In this document: positions 1 to 20,532 of the stretch, in pieces
Layout of the letters: each line of letters begins with the position of its first letter
Numbering within the stretch: the first letter of the stretch is position 1
IMG/VR virus record: IMGVR_UViG_3300046817_001002
Location: 1 to 26,032 of that record
Reading direction: 5' to 3' (one strand)
DNA length: 26,032 nucleotides
Source of the DNA: a virus
Made by a program: the position numbers and the translations under genes
Notes under the pieces: generated by a model
Database searches by the model: none
Seen by the model: the letters and a program-made list of their open reading frames with translations, nothing else
Told to the model about the DNA's origin: nothing

Positions 1-53
1 GCGGGCGCGGGCTCAATCGCGCGTGGATCGTTGGCTCGGAGGCAGTCCTGTGA
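1..53 (+). CDS. C-terminal end of an upstream phage gene (partial)
   Basis: Frame 3 is open from the window edge and ends in TGA at 51-53, giving about 16 residues ending WIVGSEAVL. The stop overlaps the GTG start of the tailspike gene as GTGA, the same coupling pattern used throughout this window. That overlap is the main reason to believe it is a real gene end. Too little is visible to assign a function. Confidence 0.45.
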   Translation, partial: GRGLNRAWIVGSEAVL

Positions 54-3000
54 ACGACGGCAATACCGGCTATCCCTGGTCGACCGGCGATGTGCTGCTG
101 GCGGCAGACCTCAATAGTGCGATCGCCAATGCTGGGGGCGGCGGAGGCGGCAGTGCCGGTGCGGGGTCCGGGGCCATTCGGCTGATGGACCATCTATTTG
201 GGGTGCAGCGTCCTGACGGGGTCGATTGCAGCGCTGCCATGGCAGCGTGCATAGCGGCAGCCGTGACTAACGCTGCCGCCGGATTGACCAGCGTGATCGT
301 GCTGCCAGCCGGCACGGTCGATCTCAGCAGCGCTGTTTTCTACGCGGGCGCGCAAGGCACGCAATATGCTTTCCTGGTTCCTGACAATACCAAGATCGTC
401 GGCCAGGGGATGGACCGGACGAATATCATCTGGAGCCAGAATAATTTTGCCAGCTACAACCTGTTTGGCTCGCTCAACTATGGCTCGCCGACACGCGGAC
501 AGAATATTGAGTTTGCCGATTTCACAGTGATCGGCGGCTGGACGCCGACGACCATGAATGTGGGCGGCGGCATCTCGTTTCTGATTTATGACGTGGATAA
601 TCTGCGGTTCAGTCGCGTCGGCAATCGCTTCATGCGGGCGCTGAATATCTGCCCACGCGGCTGTCGCAACGTCCTCATCGAGGGGTGCGACACCGCTTAT
701 GGGTGCGTCGGCGGCATCAATTTCAGCGGCTGCACCGAGGTGATCTGCGTCGGCAATACATTTCGCTTCCTCGGTGATGATGCAATTTCGGCGCATTCGA
801 ACAGCACCGACGATCCAGACTATGTGCGCAGCAGCATCGTGATCGCGAACAACCGTTTTTATAATTGCCTGGGCGTCAGCGCGGGCGGCGCGCGCAACAT
901 CACCATCACCGGCAATGTTTTTGAATTGTGCTCCACGCATGCGATCAACCTCTGGACCGGAACCGGGACTGAAGGACTGTCGGCGATGGAGTGCGTCACC
1001 GTCGTCGGCAACACGATCCGCAATATGTGGAACGAGGCGAATATCGCTAACTCCGTGCGCCCGACCGGCGGCAGCGTCGCTATCACCGTCACCGAGAATA
1101 CCGCGCGCAAGGGGCCGCTTGGCGCGATCCCCGGCGAGAACTGGCCGGCCTCGGCAGGAGGCCCGTCGCCAGGCGCGGTGATCTCGCGGCAAACCTATTT
1201 CCGCAGCAACACGGCTGACAGCCTGGTGGCGGTTGCCGGCACGCGCGGCATCACCATCGCCGACAACGTCATCGACTGCACATTGCCGCCAAGCGACGGC
1301 AGCGCCACGGCAATCGGCGGCACCGGCAGTCTGACCGGCGGCACCATCGATCGCACGAACAAAACGTATTCCAAATTCAGCGATTACGGCATTTCCGGCG
1401 ATCCGGTTGCGCAAAACAGGCTGTGGGTGCGCACCTTCAACGTCAGCATGCAGCAGCAATGCGGATGGCTTGACCCCAGTCTGCCGCCGCCGCCCGATCC
1501 CGGCACGCACTATGCGTTCCGGCCGAACGGTATTTCCCTTGGCGGGAATGGGCCTCTGCGCATGGTGGACGTGCGCGGCAACAACATCAATCATGTCGCC
1601 TCGGGCGTAAACATCACGGCGAACTGGTTCATCGGGTTGCGCATTACCGGCAACCGGATTTCCGATTGCGTGGCAAGTGATCCGGCTGCTGTAGTCGTCA
1701 ATCCGCCCGCGCCGCTGGGGCCATGCAGCGTCGAGATCGACAACAACGTCATCGACGTTGACCCGGATCATCTGTCGCCATCGCGCACCGGCAACGGCCA
1801 ATGGATACAGAACCCGGTTAACCACGCGATCCTGCTGCAGTCGGGCGGCACGCTGGTCACGGCCTGTATTCACGATAACACCGTGCGCAATGTCGGCAAT
1901 GTCCTGCAAAACAATACCGGTGCGCAGGTTCAGTCGTGGGGAAACTACCAGGAATATAACCCCGCAACGGGCGCGACGCTGAGTTTCAACAGCGGCATCC
2001 AGCACCCTGGTGGTAGCGGTTGGACCACCCGGCAGATCGATGCCGACCCGGCGTCGGCTACGTATGGGAAGATGCTCGGGCTTAGCGTTCTCGACAGCGC
2101 GGCCATGCCGGCTACCGGCTATTACAAGCTGGGCAGCGTCGTGCGCAATTCGCAGCCGGTGGTGGATGCCGACAACAACATTCTGGCCGGCTGGGTGAAG
2201 GTTGCGCAAAGCGGAACCGCTGGCGGTGTTTTCAGCCCGACTTACGCGCCTAACATAGGCCGCGATTTTGCCGCCCTGACGGAGCTGGGTGCAAGCAACG
2301 GGGTCGTGGCGGCGATCGAACTGGCCGCCGCCGGCTCGCTGCGTTTCGAGAACGACGGCACGGCGGGCTGGCCGGTGGCGACGCTGTCGGCACCACCGGC
2401 CGGGGGCACGGCTGGCACTCTGGCCATTGCCACGCAGGCGACGGTCAGCCCGGTGTTCCCGACCGGAACGGTCGATTTGTCCAGCACTTACACGTTCGGC
2501 AATGGCACGACTGTCGCGCTGATTGCCAATGGCGGCACCGGCCTCGTCGCTGGTCAGACGCTGACTGAATTGAGCGGCCATAGCCCGACCCCGCACAAGG
2601 TGGTGGTGAACACAGTCTCGGCGGGTGCGGCGACCAATCTTTCCTGGAGCGATGGCGGCGGCAGCACCGGTTACGGCTACACCTCATACCCGCCATCACC
2701 AGCGAATTTCACCGGAGGATTGAGGCTCTATCTGCCCCTGTTCACTGTGTTGGCCGGGTCGTCGATCTCGATCGTGAGCGGCGGCTACTACGCCTCCACG
2801 CGCCCCACCGTTTCGTTCGCGCCGGCTCCTTACCAGAACACCGCCAGCCCGACCGTGAAGATGGGGGCGTCATGGTATGCGGACGCGGCGGGCGCGCACG
2901 GGACTATCGCCGCCGACGCTGTCGCGATAACTCCGGCCCCTGGCGACAACGATACCTCGGTCGCCACCACCGCATTCGTGCAGCAAGCGGTTGCGACAGG

Positions 3001-3268
3001 GACGGCTGCGATCGTGAGCCAGACCATCGCCACCGTCACCGCCAACACCGTCAGTGTCCCGGCGGGCACCAACTACATTGTCGTCTCCGACAGCATCAAC
3101 CCGGTCAACACGCTCACGGTCGGCGGCGGCACGCTGGCGGACGGTTATGATCTCTGGATGTCGTTCCCGAACGGCGGCAACTTTGCGGGCGTGCCCGTTT
3201 CAGCGCACGGCAACCTGACGCTGAAGACGCTGGGTGGTGGCTGGTCGATCCTGGCGAAGTTCGGGTGA
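50..3268 (+). CDS. Tailspike protein with right-handed beta-helix (pectate-lyase-like), 1072 aa
   Basis: Probable virion tailspike that binds and may cleave host surface polysaccharide. After a short N-terminal region and a Gly-rich hinge (about residues 30-45) comes a typical beta-helix entry, FGVQRPDGVD...VIVLPAGTVDLS, where a pectate-lyase-type spike usually reads FGxxxDGxxD...xxLPxGxY. Many helix rungs follow, such as ITITGNVF, VTVVGNTI, ITIADNVI, LRITGNRIS and VEIDNNVIDV, spread over about residues 130-640. The C-terminal third is Gly/Thr/Ala-rich and holds the fibre motif DNDTSVATTAFV, common in phage tail fibres. GTG at 50 is chosen over an in-frame GTG at 23 because GGAGG (38-42) sits 7 nt upstream and the start overlaps the previous stop. 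No catalytic residues can be assigned by eye, so depolymerase activity is inference. Confidence 0.85.
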   Translation: MNDGNTGYPWSTGDVLLAADLNSAIANAGGGGGGSAGAGSGAIRLMDHLFGVQRPDGVDCSAAMAACIAAAVTNAAAGLTSVIVLPAGTVDLSSAVFYAGAQGTQYAFLVPDNTKIVGQGMDRTNIIWSQNNFASYNLFGSLNYGSPTRGQNIEFADFTVIGGWTPTTMNVGGGISFLIYDVDNLRFSRVGNRFMRALNICPRGCRNVLIEGCDTAYGCVGGINFSGCTEVICVGNTFRFLGDDAISAHSNSTDDPDYVRSSIVIANNRFYNCLGVSAGGARNITITGNVFELCSTHAINLWTGTGTEGLSAMECVTVVGNTIRNMWNEANIANSVRPTGGSVAITVTENTARKGPLGAIPGENWPASAGGPSPGAVISRQTYFRSNTADSLVAVAGTRGITIADNVIDCTLPPSDGSATAIGGTGSLTGGTIDRTNKTYSKFSDYGISGDPVAQNRLWVRTFNVSMQQQCGWLDPSLPPPPDPGTHYAFRPNGISLGGNGPLRMVDVRGNNINHVASGVNITANWFIGLRITGNRISDCVASDPAAVVVNPPAPLGPCSVEIDNNVIDVDPDHLSPSRTGNGQWIQNPVNHAILLQSGGTLVTACIHDNTVRNVGNVLQNNTGAQVQSWGNYQEYNPATGATLSFNSGIQHPGGSGWTTRQIDADPASATYGKMLGLSVLDSAAMPATGYYKLGSVVRNSQPVVDADNNILAGWVKVAQSGTAGGVFSPTYAPNIGRDFAALTELGASNGVVAAIELAAAGSLRFENDGTAGWPVATLSAPPAGGTAGTLAIATQATVSPVFPTGTVDLSSTYTFGNGTTVALIANGGTGLVAGQTLTELSGHSPTPHKVVVNTVSAGAATNLSWSDGGGSTGYGYTSYPPSPANFTGGLRLYLPLFTVLAGSSISIVSGGYYASTRPTVSFAPAPYQNTASPTVKMGASWYADAAGAHGTIAADAVAITPAPGDNDTSVATTAFVQQAVATGTAAIVSQTIATVTANTVSVPAGTNYIVVSDSINPVNTLTVGGGTLADGYDLWMSFPNGGNFAGVPVSAHGNLTLKTLGGGWSILAKFG

Positions 3269-16488: not shown

Positions 16489-17208
16489 TCATTGCACACA
16501 GACACGGCACTTTAGCCGTCCGATCGCGTCCACCCGGGTGTCGCGCGGGACCCAGCCGGTTTCAAACTTGATGCGCAAATCTTTGAGCGCCGCCGGCTGG
16601 GTATCGCGCGCTGGCGAACGAAAGGTGTGACCGGTGTCAGCCTCCCACTGCTCCCCCTCGAGGTAGCTCGGGAGGTCGTCGCGCCACAGCTCGTGCCACT
16701 CGATCAGACGCTGGAAGAAACACAGCTTGCAGTCGGTCCTGATCGGGATTGCCTGCTGCCGATCGGCGAGGAACCGCCGCACGTCGGCCAACCCCATGCC
16801 CGCCTCGCGCAGCGGGAAAATCATCTTGACATCCAGCACGTCTTGGTAATCGCCGCCCTCGCGTTCCTCCTCATCGGCGCGCAGGCCCACGTAGAACCGG
16901 GCGGGTGCATGTTGCAGGAGATAGGCGGCGAAGGGTTCAATCTTGAGGACGCGCGTGCACCACCGCTGCCGCCAATTTGGCAGCGCGTTCCACTGCTCCA
17001 CCAGTCCGGCCAACCCACCCTGATACATGATCGGCAGGATCGGGCCGATCCGCCCGGCGAGGGCACGCATGTGCGCGAACCAGGCCGCCGGCTCGTTCCC
17101 TGTCGGCGTGCACACCCAGGTAAATTCAACATCGGGCTGCGTCTCGCGCAACAACAGCGCCATCGCCACGCTGTCCTTACCGCCAGAGATTGCACCAATG
17201 TGTTTCAT
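16489..17208 (-). CDS. PAPS-reductase-like PP-loop ATPase (adenine nucleotide alpha-hydrolase), 239 aa
   Basis: The PP-loop AISGGKDSVAMALLL (Ser8-Gly-Gly-Lys-Asp-Ser13) binds ATP and usually activates a substrate by adenylation. QRWCTRVLKIEPF (Cys84) and GLRADEEER (108-116) are motifs of the phage PAPS-reductase/DndC-like group. Two CxxC pairs, Cys160/Cys163 (CKLCFFQR) and Cys234/Cys237 at the C-terminus, may bind zinc or an iron-sulfur cluster. Family members act in sulfur transfer or nucleotide modification; the phage substrate is unknown. It lies next to a cytosine methyltransferase, so a role in nucleic-acid modification is attractive but unproven. ATG 17208 overlaps the stop of a 13-codon ORF as ATGA. 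Confidence 0.8.
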   Translation of the reverse strand: MKHIGAISGGKDSVAMALLLRETQPDVEFTWVCTPTGNEPAAWFAHMRALAGRIGPILPIMYQGGLAGLVEQWNALPNWRQRWCTRVLKIEPFAAYLLQHAPARFYVGLRADEEEREGGDYQDVLDVKMIFPLREAGMGLADVRRFLADRQQAIPIRTDCKLCFFQRLIEWHELWRDDLPSYLEGEQWEADTGHTFRSPARDTQPAALKDLRIKFETGWVPRDTRVDAIGRLKCRVCVQ

Positions 17209-17263: not shown

Positions 17264-18355
17264 TCAAAATGGTTCGCACTCCATCCACGCCTTCACGAAC
17301 TCCGCCGCGACGACCGGATTGATCGCGTTGCCGTAGGCGCGCAGCTTGGCCACGTCGCCGGGACGCCGTTGAGCCAGCGGGAAAATTCCGGGTTGAGCAG
17401 GCCGGCGCTTGCCGTCGAGGCAGTCGATCCATTCAAGCTCGCGCCAGGGATCGCGGGGGCCGCGAGCCACGCCTGACGACCCAGCAGCGCGTTCGTCTCC
17501 ACGTTCGGCGTCGGCGTGTCCTTCCAGTCGCGCGCCGATGGCGTCGCCCAGCCCGCCGTGTGAACCTGCACCCGCAGGACATTCGGATCGCGCGCCGCTT
17601 CCGCCGGGCTCACACCCGCGTGCTTCCCGTCCTGCGAGGTCGGCGTGCCCCAGCCCGCCAGCCGTGTCGTATCCCCCAGACCAAAGCCCGTCGTTCCTCC
17701 GCGAGGACCGGCATCGGAATGCCGTGGCGTCGGCCACCCGGCGAGCGCTGCCGTCTCGTTGAGATACAGCGGTACTGAGTTCTGGCCGTTCGATTTGCGG
17801 AACGCCAGTCGCTTCGTCATCGTCTCTTCGTTGCTTTTCCGCTCGACTGACATCGGCGTCGGCCACCCAGAAGAGCCGCTGCCTGATGTTCGGTGCGCCG
17901 ACGCCCGCAGAGCACAGATCGGCGGCCCCGACGGCATATCCCAGCGCTTCCAGGTCAGCGCGTACAGCTCCGAGCCACTCCCGGCCAAGGCGGCTTGCAA
18001 CTTGTTCCCCAATGACGACTGGAGGGCGGCACTCCGCGACGAGGCGACGGAACTCGGGCCAGAGGTGCCGGTCGTCGGCAGTGCCTTTTCCCTGCCCGGC
18101 GACGCTGAAGGGCTGGCAGGGGCAGGAGCCGGTCCAGGCGGGGCGATCGTCCGGCCATGCAGCACTTCGAAGAGCGTGAGACCACAGGCCGAGGCCGGCG
18201 AAGAAGTGGCATTGCGTGTATCCACGCAGATCGACAGGCGCCACGTCGCGGATGCTGCGTTCGTCGACATCGCCCGGCACAATAAGGCCGGCAGCAACGA
18301 GGTTGCGCAGCCACCCCGCGAGGTATCGGTCGTTTTCATTGTAGTATGCTTTCAT
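17264..18355 (-). CDS. DNA cytosine-C5 methyltransferase, 363 aa
   Basis: Transfers methyl groups from S-adenosylmethionine to C5 of cytosine in DNA, probably masking phage DNA from restriction. Motif I is HFFAGLGLWSHAL (50-62), motif IV TGSCPCQPFS with catalytic Cys80, motif VI IGEQVAS (115-121, GEQV in place of the usual ENV), motif VIII IRQRLFWVAD (158-166), motif X YGNAINPVVAAEF near the C-terminus. Between VIII and X, where the target recognition domain lies, there are repeated GxxDA-type segments (VADAD, VADAT, GLGHAD, GLGDA). ATG 18355 is chosen because it overlaps the polymerase stop (ATGA) and gives the family start MKAYYNENDRYLAGWLRNL. A second long frame overlaps almost all of it. 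Confidence 0.85.
   Translation of the reverse strand: MKAYYNENDRYLAGWLRNLVAAGLIVPGDVDERSIRDVAPVDLRGYTQCHFFAGLGLWSHALRSAAWPDDRPAWTGSCPCQPFSVAGQGKGTADDRHLWPEFRRLVAECRPPVVIGEQVASRLGREWLGAVRADLEALGYAVGAADLCSAGVGAPNIRQRLFWVADADVSRAEKQRRDDDEATGVPQIERPELSTAVSQRDGSARRVADATAFRCRSSRRNDGLWSGGYDTAGGLGHADLAGREARGCEPGGSGARSECPAGAGSHGGLGDAIGARLEGHADAERGDERAAGSSGVARGPRDPWRELEWIDCLDGKRRPAQPGIFPLAQRRPGDVAKLRAYGNAINPVVAAEFVKAWMECEPF
17293..18339 (-). CDS. Overlapping 348-aa ORF inside the methyltransferase gene (possible dual coding)
   Basis: Open for 348 codons in the +1 frame relative to the methyltransferase, starting with ATG 18339. Its central and C-terminal parts do not look like random shadow sequence: LGNKLQAALAGSGSELYALT, WKRWDMPSGPPICALRASA, HRTSGSGSSGWPTP, then repeats LAGWPTP, LAGWGTP and TAGWATPSARDWKD, and an end LNPEFSRWLNGVPATW...CAPTATRS. 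I recall this pattern from phage proteins annotated separately in other genomes. No independent ribosome binding site is obvious, so whether it is translated here is open. Confidence 0.35.
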   Translation of the reverse strand: MKTTDTSRGGCATSLLPALLCRAMSTNAASATWRLSICVDTRNATSSPASACGLTLFEVLHGRTIAPPGPAPAPASPSASPGREKALPTTGTSGPSSVASSRSAALQSSLGNKLQAALAGSGSELYALTWKRWDMPSGPPICALRASAHRTSGSGSSGWPTPMSVERKSNEETMTKRLAFRKSNGQNSVPLYLNETAALAGWPTPRHSDAGPRGGTTGFGLGDTTRLAGWGTPTSQDGKHAGVSPAEAARDPNVLRVQVHTAGWATPSARDWKDTPTPNVETNALLGRQAWLAAPAIPGASLNGSTASTASAGLLNPEFSRWLNGVPATWPSCAPTATRSIRSSRRSS

Positions 18356-20532
18356 TTGACATAGCGCAGGCCGCGATTGCCCCTGGCGCTGAGCGGAAAC
18401 CCCTTCGCCCAATCCGGCGCGCCGCACATGATTTCAATTTGCTCGCCGATCGTGCCGCGAAAACCCGGCGGCTCGCAGATGATCTCGTCGTGCACGAGGG
18501 CGATCGGCCGATAGCCTGCACGCTCGAGGCCGAGCATGCCGTGCACCAGCAGATCGCGGCACAGGCCCTGCGCCGCGTTCTCGGTCAGGCGCCCGCCGTA
18601 TGTCTGACCGCGCTGCCACTTCCGGGTCTTGGCGTTGACCTCCATATAGGTCAGCTTCTCGCCGCCATACTTTTCGTTTGGTTCGATGAGAGGCTGCGAA
18701 TACCAGATGCACCGGCCCGACGGCAGGCGCATGCGCAGCCACTTGCCCTCGCGCCGGAACCGGATGTGGCCGATGTGCGTCACGGTGCCAGGCAGCTGCA
18801 CGGCGCCGATCGCCGCCCGGTTCATCTCGCGCCACAACCTGGGGATGTTGGGGAACGTCTCGCGGTAGACCGCGATCGCGCGGTACGCTTCCTCGTCCGA
18901 CAGATAAATGCCGGTCTGCGCGAGCACGGTCTCGCGAAACTTGAACCAGCCCAGCTGATAGCCCGCGCCTAACACGAGCGTCTTGCCGACGAACCGCTCC
19001 TTACTGTCCTTCGAGATCCGGCTGGCGGGGATGCCATACACCTGCGCCGCCATCTGTTCGTAGATCGGCTCGCGGCGGCGGAAGGCCTCGAGCAGGCTGG
19101 TCTCGCCCGCGAGCCACGCCACGCCGACCGCTTCGACGGACGAGAAATCGGAAGCCCCGATCTCGTATCCCTCGCGCGGGATGATGGCGCCGCGCAGCAT
19201 CCGCGAAATCATCTCCAGCGGCGGGCCCCACAGGGCGTCTACGAGCTCCCTCCCGCCGTCGAGCAGCTGGCGGCACTCGTCCCAGTCGGGTGGCACATCG
19301 CGCGGGAGGTTCTGCACCTGCAGACCGTGCGAGATATATCTGCCCGTGTTAGCCCCATGGTAACCAAAAAGGCCGCGCACCACGCCCTCGCCGTCGGCCC
19401 GGTGCTCGATCGCGTCCAGCTTGCGGGTGGATATCTTCCCCGCCTCGTAGCGAACGATCAGGGCCACCCTGGCCGCGCCGGGCAGCTCGCCCGCCAGCAG
19501 GCGCAGGACGTCCCTCCGCCGCAGGTCGGGCAGGTCATCGCGTGGATCAGGCGTGCCCCCGGCGGCCGCCACATCCTCGTCGAGCACCTCGACATCGACC
19601 TCGACCTCTTCCTGCGTTTCAGCGGCGATGCCCGGGTCGGCCGTCGTGTAAACCGGCGGCGTCAGGTCGACGTTCTGCCGGATCAGCCATCGCTTGAGAT
19701 CGGTGACATTGGACGCCTTCTTCACGGCTCCGCCGGTCGTGCGGAGCATGTCCTCGTCCAGCAGCACACGCGCGTCCTCTCCGACCACGCGCGCGGCGCG
19801 AACGAAATCCAGATCGAACCGCACGCCGCGATCGTTGATGATCTCGGTCTCGCGCCAGACGTTGACCTCATCGTCCGACAGCGGGCGCAGACCCTTGTCG
19901 AGGGCACGTTCAACGCGCACATCGAAGCTGCAATAATCCGAGAGGCGGGTCATCCGCTCCTCATCCTCCCACCACGTCACATCTCCACCCGGCAGCACCG
20001 CGCGCGGGCGGCACATGCGGAGCATCAGGGCATGGCCCTGGAGGTCTTTGCGCACGTCCAGGCCCATCGCCTGCGCCGCACCGTCGAGGGCGCCCGGCAG
20101 CGCCTGCGCCCGCGCGCGGGCCATGGTGCAGACCCACCTCTCGATCGGCACCGTCGGCCAACCATATCGCGGGTGCAGGATCAGCAGCAGGATGATCCGC
20201 TCGAACGCCGCGTTGTGCGCGACCACGCGCACATCCGGATCCGCGAGGGCATCGAGATATTTCTGCGGGAGCGGGCGCCGCGCGGGAAGGCCGGGGCGGC
20301 CATCGCAATCGGGTGCGCAGCCCGGCCAGCTACACCTGGAGCCGCGATAACACGGCACGACGCTGTTGATCTGCGGGGCCGGCGGCCGCCATTCGCACGG
20401 TGGCTCGTCTCCGAGAGCGAGGCGAGCCACCGTTACGGATGTGGATGGGTGCGCGGCGTAGATGTAGACGCCGGTCTTGCGCAGATCGACGGTCGAACGC
20501 GTTTCGCAGTCCCAGTAGAGGGACTGCGGCAT
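18352..20532 (-). CDS. Family A DNA polymerase with 3'-5' exonuclease, 726 aa
   Basis: Replicative phage polymerase of the PolA group. Exonuclease motifs: YWDCET (Asp8, Glu10), AHNAAFE (106-111), YCSFD (Tyr200, Asp204). Polymerase motif A is ASDFSSVEAVGVAWLAG (Asp462), motif B SKERFVGKTLVLGAGYQLG (Lys517, Tyr525), motif C LVHDEIICEPP (His681-Asp682-Glu683). No 5'-3' exonuclease domain, as usual for phage enzymes. Two oddities: four cysteines at 61, 67, 72 and 76 between exo motifs I and II, possibly a metal knuckle, and an acidic insertion at about 303-329. ATG 20532 overlaps the upstream TAA by one base; the stop overlaps the methyltransferase start. Confidence 0.92.
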   Translation of the reverse strand: MPQSLYWDCETRSTVDLRKTGVYIYAAHPSTSVTVARLALGDEPPCEWRPPAPQINSVVPCYRGSRCSWPGCAPDCDGRPGLPARRPLPQKYLDALADPDVRVVAHNAAFERIILLLILHPRYGWPTVPIERWVCTMARARAQALPGALDGAAQAMGLDVRKDLQGHALMLRMCRPRAVLPGGDVTWWEDEERMTRLSDYCSFDVRVERALDKGLRPLSDDEVNVWRETEIINDRGVRFDLDFVRAARVVGEDARVLLDEDMLRTTGGAVKKASNVTDLKRWLIRQNVDLTPPVYTTADPGIAAETQEEVEVDVEVLDEDVAAAGGTPDPRDDLPDLRRRDVLRLLAGELPGAARVALIVRYEAGKISTRKLDAIEHRADGEGVVRGLFGYHGANTGRYISHGLQVQNLPRDVPPDWDECRQLLDGGRELVDALWGPPLEMISRMLRGAIIPREGYEIGASDFSSVEAVGVAWLAGETSLLEAFRRREPIYEQMAAQVYGIPASRISKDSKERFVGKTLVLGAGYQLGWFKFRETVLAQTGIYLSDEEAYRAIAVYRETFPNIPRLWREMNRAAIGAVQLPGTVTHIGHIRFRREGKWLRMRLPSGRCIWYSQPLIEPNEKYGGEKLTYMEVNAKTRKWQRGQTYGGRLTENAAQGLCRDLLVHGMLGLERAGYRPIALVHDEIICEPPGFRGTIGEQIEIMCGAPDWAKGFPLSARGNRGLRYVK

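Follow-up and report, generated by a model that had tools for sequence, protein, structure and literature searches.

A likely two-subunit C5-cytosine methyltransferase encoded by two overprinted reading frames in phages

The gene for the small subunit of the methyltransferase M.EcoHK31I reportedly lies inside the gene for the large subunit, in another reading frame. M.EcoHK31I is a C5 enzyme composed of two polypeptides, with motifs I-VIII and X on the large chain and motif IX on the smaller one, and its predicted recognition domain has been placed in the large subunit (PMC3404938). M.AquI is a split C5 methyltransferase that also consists of two chains, with the small domain located on the second (PMC3404938). 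The target of M.EcoHK31I is YGGCCR and that of M.AquI is CYCGRG. Enzymes that were split artificially at a point between motif VIII and the recognition domain are likewise able to complement; in circularly permuted designs, the motif X helix has been joined to the large domain (PMC5944983). Here, we describe a viral locus that we read, with a probability of roughly 0.85, as a two-subunit C5 methyltransferase encoded by overprinting, in which one frame would provide the catalytic chain and a frame nested within it the recognition domain together with motif IX.

A catalytic frame and a frame nested within it

The window is the entire 26,032-nucleotide stretch that was analysed (IMG/VR virus record IMGVR_UViG_3300046817_001002). 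Two long overlapping open reading frames (ORFs) are located on its minus strand: frame B, the Dcm or alpha frame, and frame A, the +1 or beta frame. An earlier note on this DNA, which named no strand, had claimed two long frames at 17293-18339, with the +1 frame open for 348 codons. Both ORFs are indeed present there, every peptide that the note quoted was found, and the ORF coordinates confirm the length of the open run. The longest ORF of frame B extends over 17264-18427 (387 aa from a GTG), and translation from the conserved start, an ATG at 18355, gives a C5-cytosine methyltransferase catalytic subunit of 363 aa (17264-18355, minus strand). The maximal +1 ORF of frame A is nested in B (17293-18339, minus strand) and has 348 aa, its start in the window being unresolved. 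According to the ORF coordinates, the upstream polymerase gene ends and B starts in a shared ATGA at 18352-18355 (minus strand), making translational coupling possible. The methyltransferase gene has a GC content of 68%. Just downstream is a PAPS-reductase-like gene (16489-17208, minus strand) that matches phrog_424 at 9.9e-21, and PAPS-reductase genes are likewise found near the methyltransferase in loci L311 and L319. At the other end of the window, a frame of 800 codons (194-2596, minus strand) is open antisense to an ORF of 1081 codons (23-3268, plus strand), probably as an effect of GC content.

The two translations were searched separately, a check that the earlier note had put forward. 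Frame B matches PF00145 (7.1e-13, Pfam profile search) and phrog_363 (5.4e-74, PHROGs profile search), and C5-methyltransferase motifs I, IV, VI, VIII and X are present in it. Alignment to single-chain C5 methyltransferases with hhalign places motif I (HFFAGLG) at 18188-18208, motif IV with the catalytic Cys (PCQPFS) at 18104-18121, motif VI (IGEQV, reading EQV where the single-chain enzymes have ENV) at 17999-18013 and the motif VIII region (IRQRLFW) at 17867-17887, whereas motif X (LRAYGNAI) at 17321-17344 was located by its conservation in alignments of B homologues; all are on the minus strand. In the AlphaFold2 model of B, two parts are ordered (residues 1-182 and about 308-360), separated by a disordered one. 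Residues 203-294 (17474-17749, minus strand), which lie over the repeats of A, have a pLDDT below 50 over most of their length and on this model are read as a putative linker. Foldseek matches the B model to M.HaeIII and M.HhaI (best E 4.1e-9), and VIA-align aligns it with M.HhaI over 180 residues (Z 15.1, 3.1 Å). Frame B meets both the motif test and the large-domain fold test and is the catalytic part of a C5-cytosine methyltransferase. It fails the test for a single-chain enzyme, because there is no motif IX in frame with motifs VIII and X, and the motif IX pattern was found in frame B at 0 of 244 loci. The earlier note had credited this frame with all catalytic motifs, a statement that the missing motif IX contradicts.

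The N-terminus of B (18188-18355) is of the YYNE type, in which a motif II/III-like segment, YYNEND...VDERSI, stands ahead of motif I. The motif II-like YYNEND is located at 18329-18346 (minus strand) on the basis of VIA-align and a weak hhalign match. Residue 1 of the B model pairs with residue 34 of M.HhaI in VIA-align, and the profile alignment of B with single-chain enzymes has a gap where motifs II-III should come after motif I. This looks like a local permutation, although the direct hhalign test is weak.

Frame A matches phrog_1008 (2.4e-20) and phrog_31772 (1.3e-16). The separate family that the earlier note had mentioned therefore exists: phrog_1008 is matched by 91 of 91 aligned A homologues, and both this family and phrog_363 are labelled DNA methyltransferase in PHROGs. 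Searches of A against Pfam, NCBIfam and PDB profiles returned nothing meaningful. The AlphaFold2 model of A is poor (pLDDT 64, pTM 0.29), and with this poor model Foldseek found no match among solved folds (best E 0.79). Plasmid searches with frame A gave matches annotated as DNA cytosine methyltransferase, none of which was named a restriction-modification system. According to alignments of A homologues, the conserved beta core starts at LTWKRW (17941-17958), and four GW(P/G/A)TP units follow, beginning at A residues 158, 201, 229 and 263. As the earlier note had stated, the same DNA repeats feed both frames. Position mapping shows that GWPTP unit 1 (17854-17868) is read as VADAD in B, GWPTP unit 2 (17725-17739) as VADAT, GWGTP unit 3 (17641-17655) as LGHAD and GWATP unit 4 (17539-17553) as LGDAI, all on the minus strand.

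Overprinting and the start of the nested frame

Phage records, viral contigs and bacterial genomes served as sources of homologues. In order to count stops, 74 non-redundant homologues were chosen by frame B alone and the region from motif IV to motif X of B was compared with a control in which synonymous codons of B were shuffled, leaving the B protein and codon usage fixed. A single +1 stop was observed against 157.5 expected, a depletion of about 150-fold, and the +1 frame was free of stops in 73 of the 74 loci (7.1 expected). The +2 frame of the same loci contained 695 stops against 631 expected, and no depletion like that of the +1 frame was seen in their antisense frames, nor was there an overall +1 stop depletion in six single-chain C5 methyltransferases. 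For the window gene alone, the +1 frame remained open in only 0.3% of 5000 shuffles of B codons, and the other window genes tested had +1 stops near expectation, the longest open run being 127 codons. The depletion sets in some 40 codons ahead of PCQPF, where 1 stop was found against 34.6 expected, the bin before that having 63 against 62.0, and it ends just past motif X. Conversely, when the codons of A were shuffled, B had 0 stops over the middle stretch against 448 expected, in loci that had been selected with B open.

Codon-position rates were determined in 38 independent close pairs. Upstream of A, the rates at B codon positions are 0.044 for p1 and 0.234 for p3. In the middle (recognition) stretch, p1 of B, which is the third position of A, rises to 0.328 against 0.257 for p3 (bootstrap P 1.000), and 52 non-independent pairs gave 0.268 for B p1 against 0.147. 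Given that the peak falls on the third codon position of A, the middle stretch is coding mainly in A, and the disorder of the B model there agrees with this.

Start sites were scanned in 206 homologues. An A-frame ATG is located at the border of the stop depletion in 118 of these (54.6 expected), and in 48 it is accompanied by a Shine-Dalgarno sequence (2.9 expected); AAAGGAGYATTGAAGATG is a typical initiation sequence at the border. The window has ACG at the homologous site, without the ATG and Shine-Dalgarno of those 48 relatives, and therefore A probably starts at another codon there. A candidate, inferred from the homologue scan, is the internal ATG at 18261, which is close to the start region of the homologues, about 42 codons before PCQPF, and would give a beta coding sequence of 322 aa (17293-18261, minus strand). 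In the homologues there is also a second excess of starts with Shine-Dalgarno-like sequences about 13-14 codons past PCQPF in the A frame (TTG, 35 against 5.2 expected; ATG, 12 against 3.9), from which a shorter form of beta is perhaps made.

It could be argued that GC-rich codons and strong conservation of Dcm are enough to leave the +1 frame open, and that A is not translated at all. The GC content of the gene and the open +1 runs of other window genes are in keeping with this, and part of A does mirror strongly conserved motifs of B. However, the stop depletion was obtained with the B protein and codon usage fixed, and the start signals exceed expectation as described above. In addition, the stricter motif IX pattern LNPx5LxGxP is present in frame A of 187 of the 206 non-redundant loci, where the codons of B would predict 0.4, WxTP occurs 585 times against 84 expected on the same basis, the overlap persists at 38-46% GC, and substitutions follow frame A. 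We give this explanation next to no credence, and chance openness of the +1 frame was rejected as contradicted by the stop, start-site and motif IX counts.

Both frames are held open and constrained in independent lineages and constitute an overprinted gene pair. The earlier note had left a choice between true overprinting, which is strongly supported by the stop depletion, start signals, motif excess and substitution pattern, and a locus at which different phages use different frames. The latter was rejected, because A and a single B ORF occur together, both open, in 313 of 322 loci, the remaining 9 representing partial, broken or undetected pieces. Two outcomes that the note would have taken as refutation did not materialize: stops are not frequent in the +1 frame of relatives, and purifying selection is not restricted to frame 0, as the middle stretch evolves mainly as frame A. 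It had also listed the absence of A homologues away from Dcm loci as refuting, and none was found outside such loci among the 322, but occurrence only with a methyltransferase is what would be expected of a partner-dependent subunit.

Motif IX and the proposed division of the enzyme

Motif IX is encoded by A and not by B. In the window it reads LNPEFSRWLNGVPATW (17350-17397, minus strand), identified by the motif pattern and by its being in frame with motif X elsewhere, and the pattern LNPxxxxWLxGxP was found in A at 223 of 244 loci. The motif is preceded by the repeat-rich stretch, at the place expected for a recognition domain, and in the DNA it comes just ahead of motif X of B, as motif IX precedes motif X in ordinary enzymes. 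Scanning other phage genes by pattern showed that LNPDWVEWLMGFPIGW can share a frame with motifs I-VIII and X. In six such loci (L360, L365, L376, L404, L405 and L418), these motifs have LNPxWVEWLMGFPxGW, or a close variant of it, in their own frame; there, the IX-X spacing is 19 aa, compared with 19-23 aa in single-chain enzymes, and the WPTP repeats remain in the +1 frame. In L396, the repeats or recognition region, motif IX and motif X are all in one frame. L404 and L396 are similar loci, with IX and X in frame with motifs I-VIII in the former and with the WPTP repeats in the latter.

Given the presence of motif IX in A, its order before motif X and its in-frame occurrence elsewhere, A is read as the small domain, made up of the recognition region and motif IX. 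This is inferred from sequence: hhalign of the A alignment against single-chain enzymes gave one alignment, on motif IX, that is weak and not significant by itself, and the A model is poor. On the same footing, the arrangement in the window fits an enzyme of the M.EcoHK31I type by sequence motif, one chain having motifs I-VIII and X and the other motif IX.

That the DNA order equals the order of a single-chain enzyme could also be explained by programmed frameshifting, in which a single chain would take motifs I-VIII from B, recognition region and motif IX from A and motif X again from B. The single frame of L396 and a B N-terminus in frame with A in L026 fit this as well. However, separate start signals exist for A, and the ribosome would have to shift twice, in opposite directions. 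A B frame that is open throughout, albeit in loci chosen for this, would also be needless, and we leave frameshifting only a slim chance. Alternatively, A might be an unrelated accessory protein overprinted on the methyltransferase gene, as could be supposed from its lack of a fold or Pfam match. Against this, A holds the motif IX that B is without, the second architecture has the same motif IX in frame with motif X, and A was never seen without a methyltransferase. We consider such a protein very improbable, and unrelated overprinting was rejected.

A further possibility is that beta contributes motif IX only and that the recognition domain is the middle stretch of B. This is the published view of M.EcoHK31I (PMC3404938), and the placement of its recognition domain in the large subunit counts against A as the recognition domain. 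Nevertheless, the middle of B is predicted to be disordered and is most variable at its first codon position, the third of A, and the second architecture keeps the WPTP region in +1 although its motif IX is in B. Recognition by B is unlikely for these reasons, without being negligible.

In the two-subunit enzyme that we favor, B would be the catalytic large domain, binding AdoMet and using the Cys of PCQPFS, and would regain motif X by way of the disordered linker. Translation of A would begin within the alpha gene, in the +1 frame, and its product would form the small domain, with a repeat-rich target-recognition region followed by motif IX. Alpha and beta would assemble as one enzyme, and a cytosine would be methylated in a site chosen by beta. 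The role of A in recognition, the A-B heterodimer and methylation of phage DNA by the complex are all inferred, as there are no protein data for A. WxTP units number from 1 to 9 and vary even between loci whose N-termini are >85% identical. Conceivably, although we would put this at somewhat less than even odds, specificity in many of the C5 methyltransferases of phages resides in a modular overprinted cassette, whose WxTP units of ∼34 residues, read in +1 over the disordered linker of B, are gained and lost to give new targets while B merely stays open.

Distribution and relation to known systems

Over a range of 38-61% GC, the +1 overlap is present in phages that infect Lacticaseibacillus, Paenibacillus, Mycobacterium, Bacteroides, Porphyromonas, cyanobacteria (Synechococcus, Microcystis) and Proteobacteria (Vibrio, Acinetobacter and, with phages N15 and K1H, E. 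coli). Annotation is inconsistent, with records listing alpha, beta or both. For example, in L320 (Porphyromonas phage018a, about 1802-2690), B is open and looks complete but is unannotated, and A alone is listed, as a hypothetical protein. Frames are shifted, by mutation or sequencing error, in L026, L027, L011 and L312. At L026 (1854-3008), the N-terminus of B with motifs I-IV runs in frame into A and the C-terminal half of B is in another frame, as a result of a frameshift mutation or of misassembly. If the two-subunit reading is correct, many phage "Dcm" genes code for no more than the catalytic half of an enzyme, and testing the annotated protein in the absence of the nested subunit may be unsuccessful or give misleading results. 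It would also mean that the overprinting is old and widespread, with two frames encoding complementary halves of one enzyme.

No paper on the nested frame in phages was found in the literature searched; most subscription papers were outside it, and support for novelty is accordingly weak. Within that limit, the new elements are the breadth of the arrangement, the tests for selection, the ribosome-binding site inside the gene and the assignment of the recognition region to the nested frame, whereas the heterodimer, its target and its activity are inferred. PHROGs lists phrog_363 and phrog_1008 as two families, and its scan output is silent on the DNA that they share. Both frames are already annotated in Paenibacillus phage Lily (gp62/gp63) and Escherichia phage K1H (ORF29/ORF28), and the record for Lily gp63 bears the note "g62 internal gene". 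However, these records provide annotation only, without evidence of function or selection.

Of the characterized enzymes, M.AquI resembles L396, which likewise reads the recognition region, motif IX and motif X in one frame, but it differs from the window in that its motif X accompanies the small subunit, whereas that of the window is with the catalytic chain. The known precedent for motif IX on a separate subunit is M.EcoHK31I, with which the window shares a large chain carrying motifs I-VIII and X and a smaller polypeptide carrying motif IX. The two differ in that members of the family described here are mostly phage or prophage genes, although restriction enzymes were not systematically sought, and in that the recognition region of the window locus appears to accompany motif IX in the nested frame.
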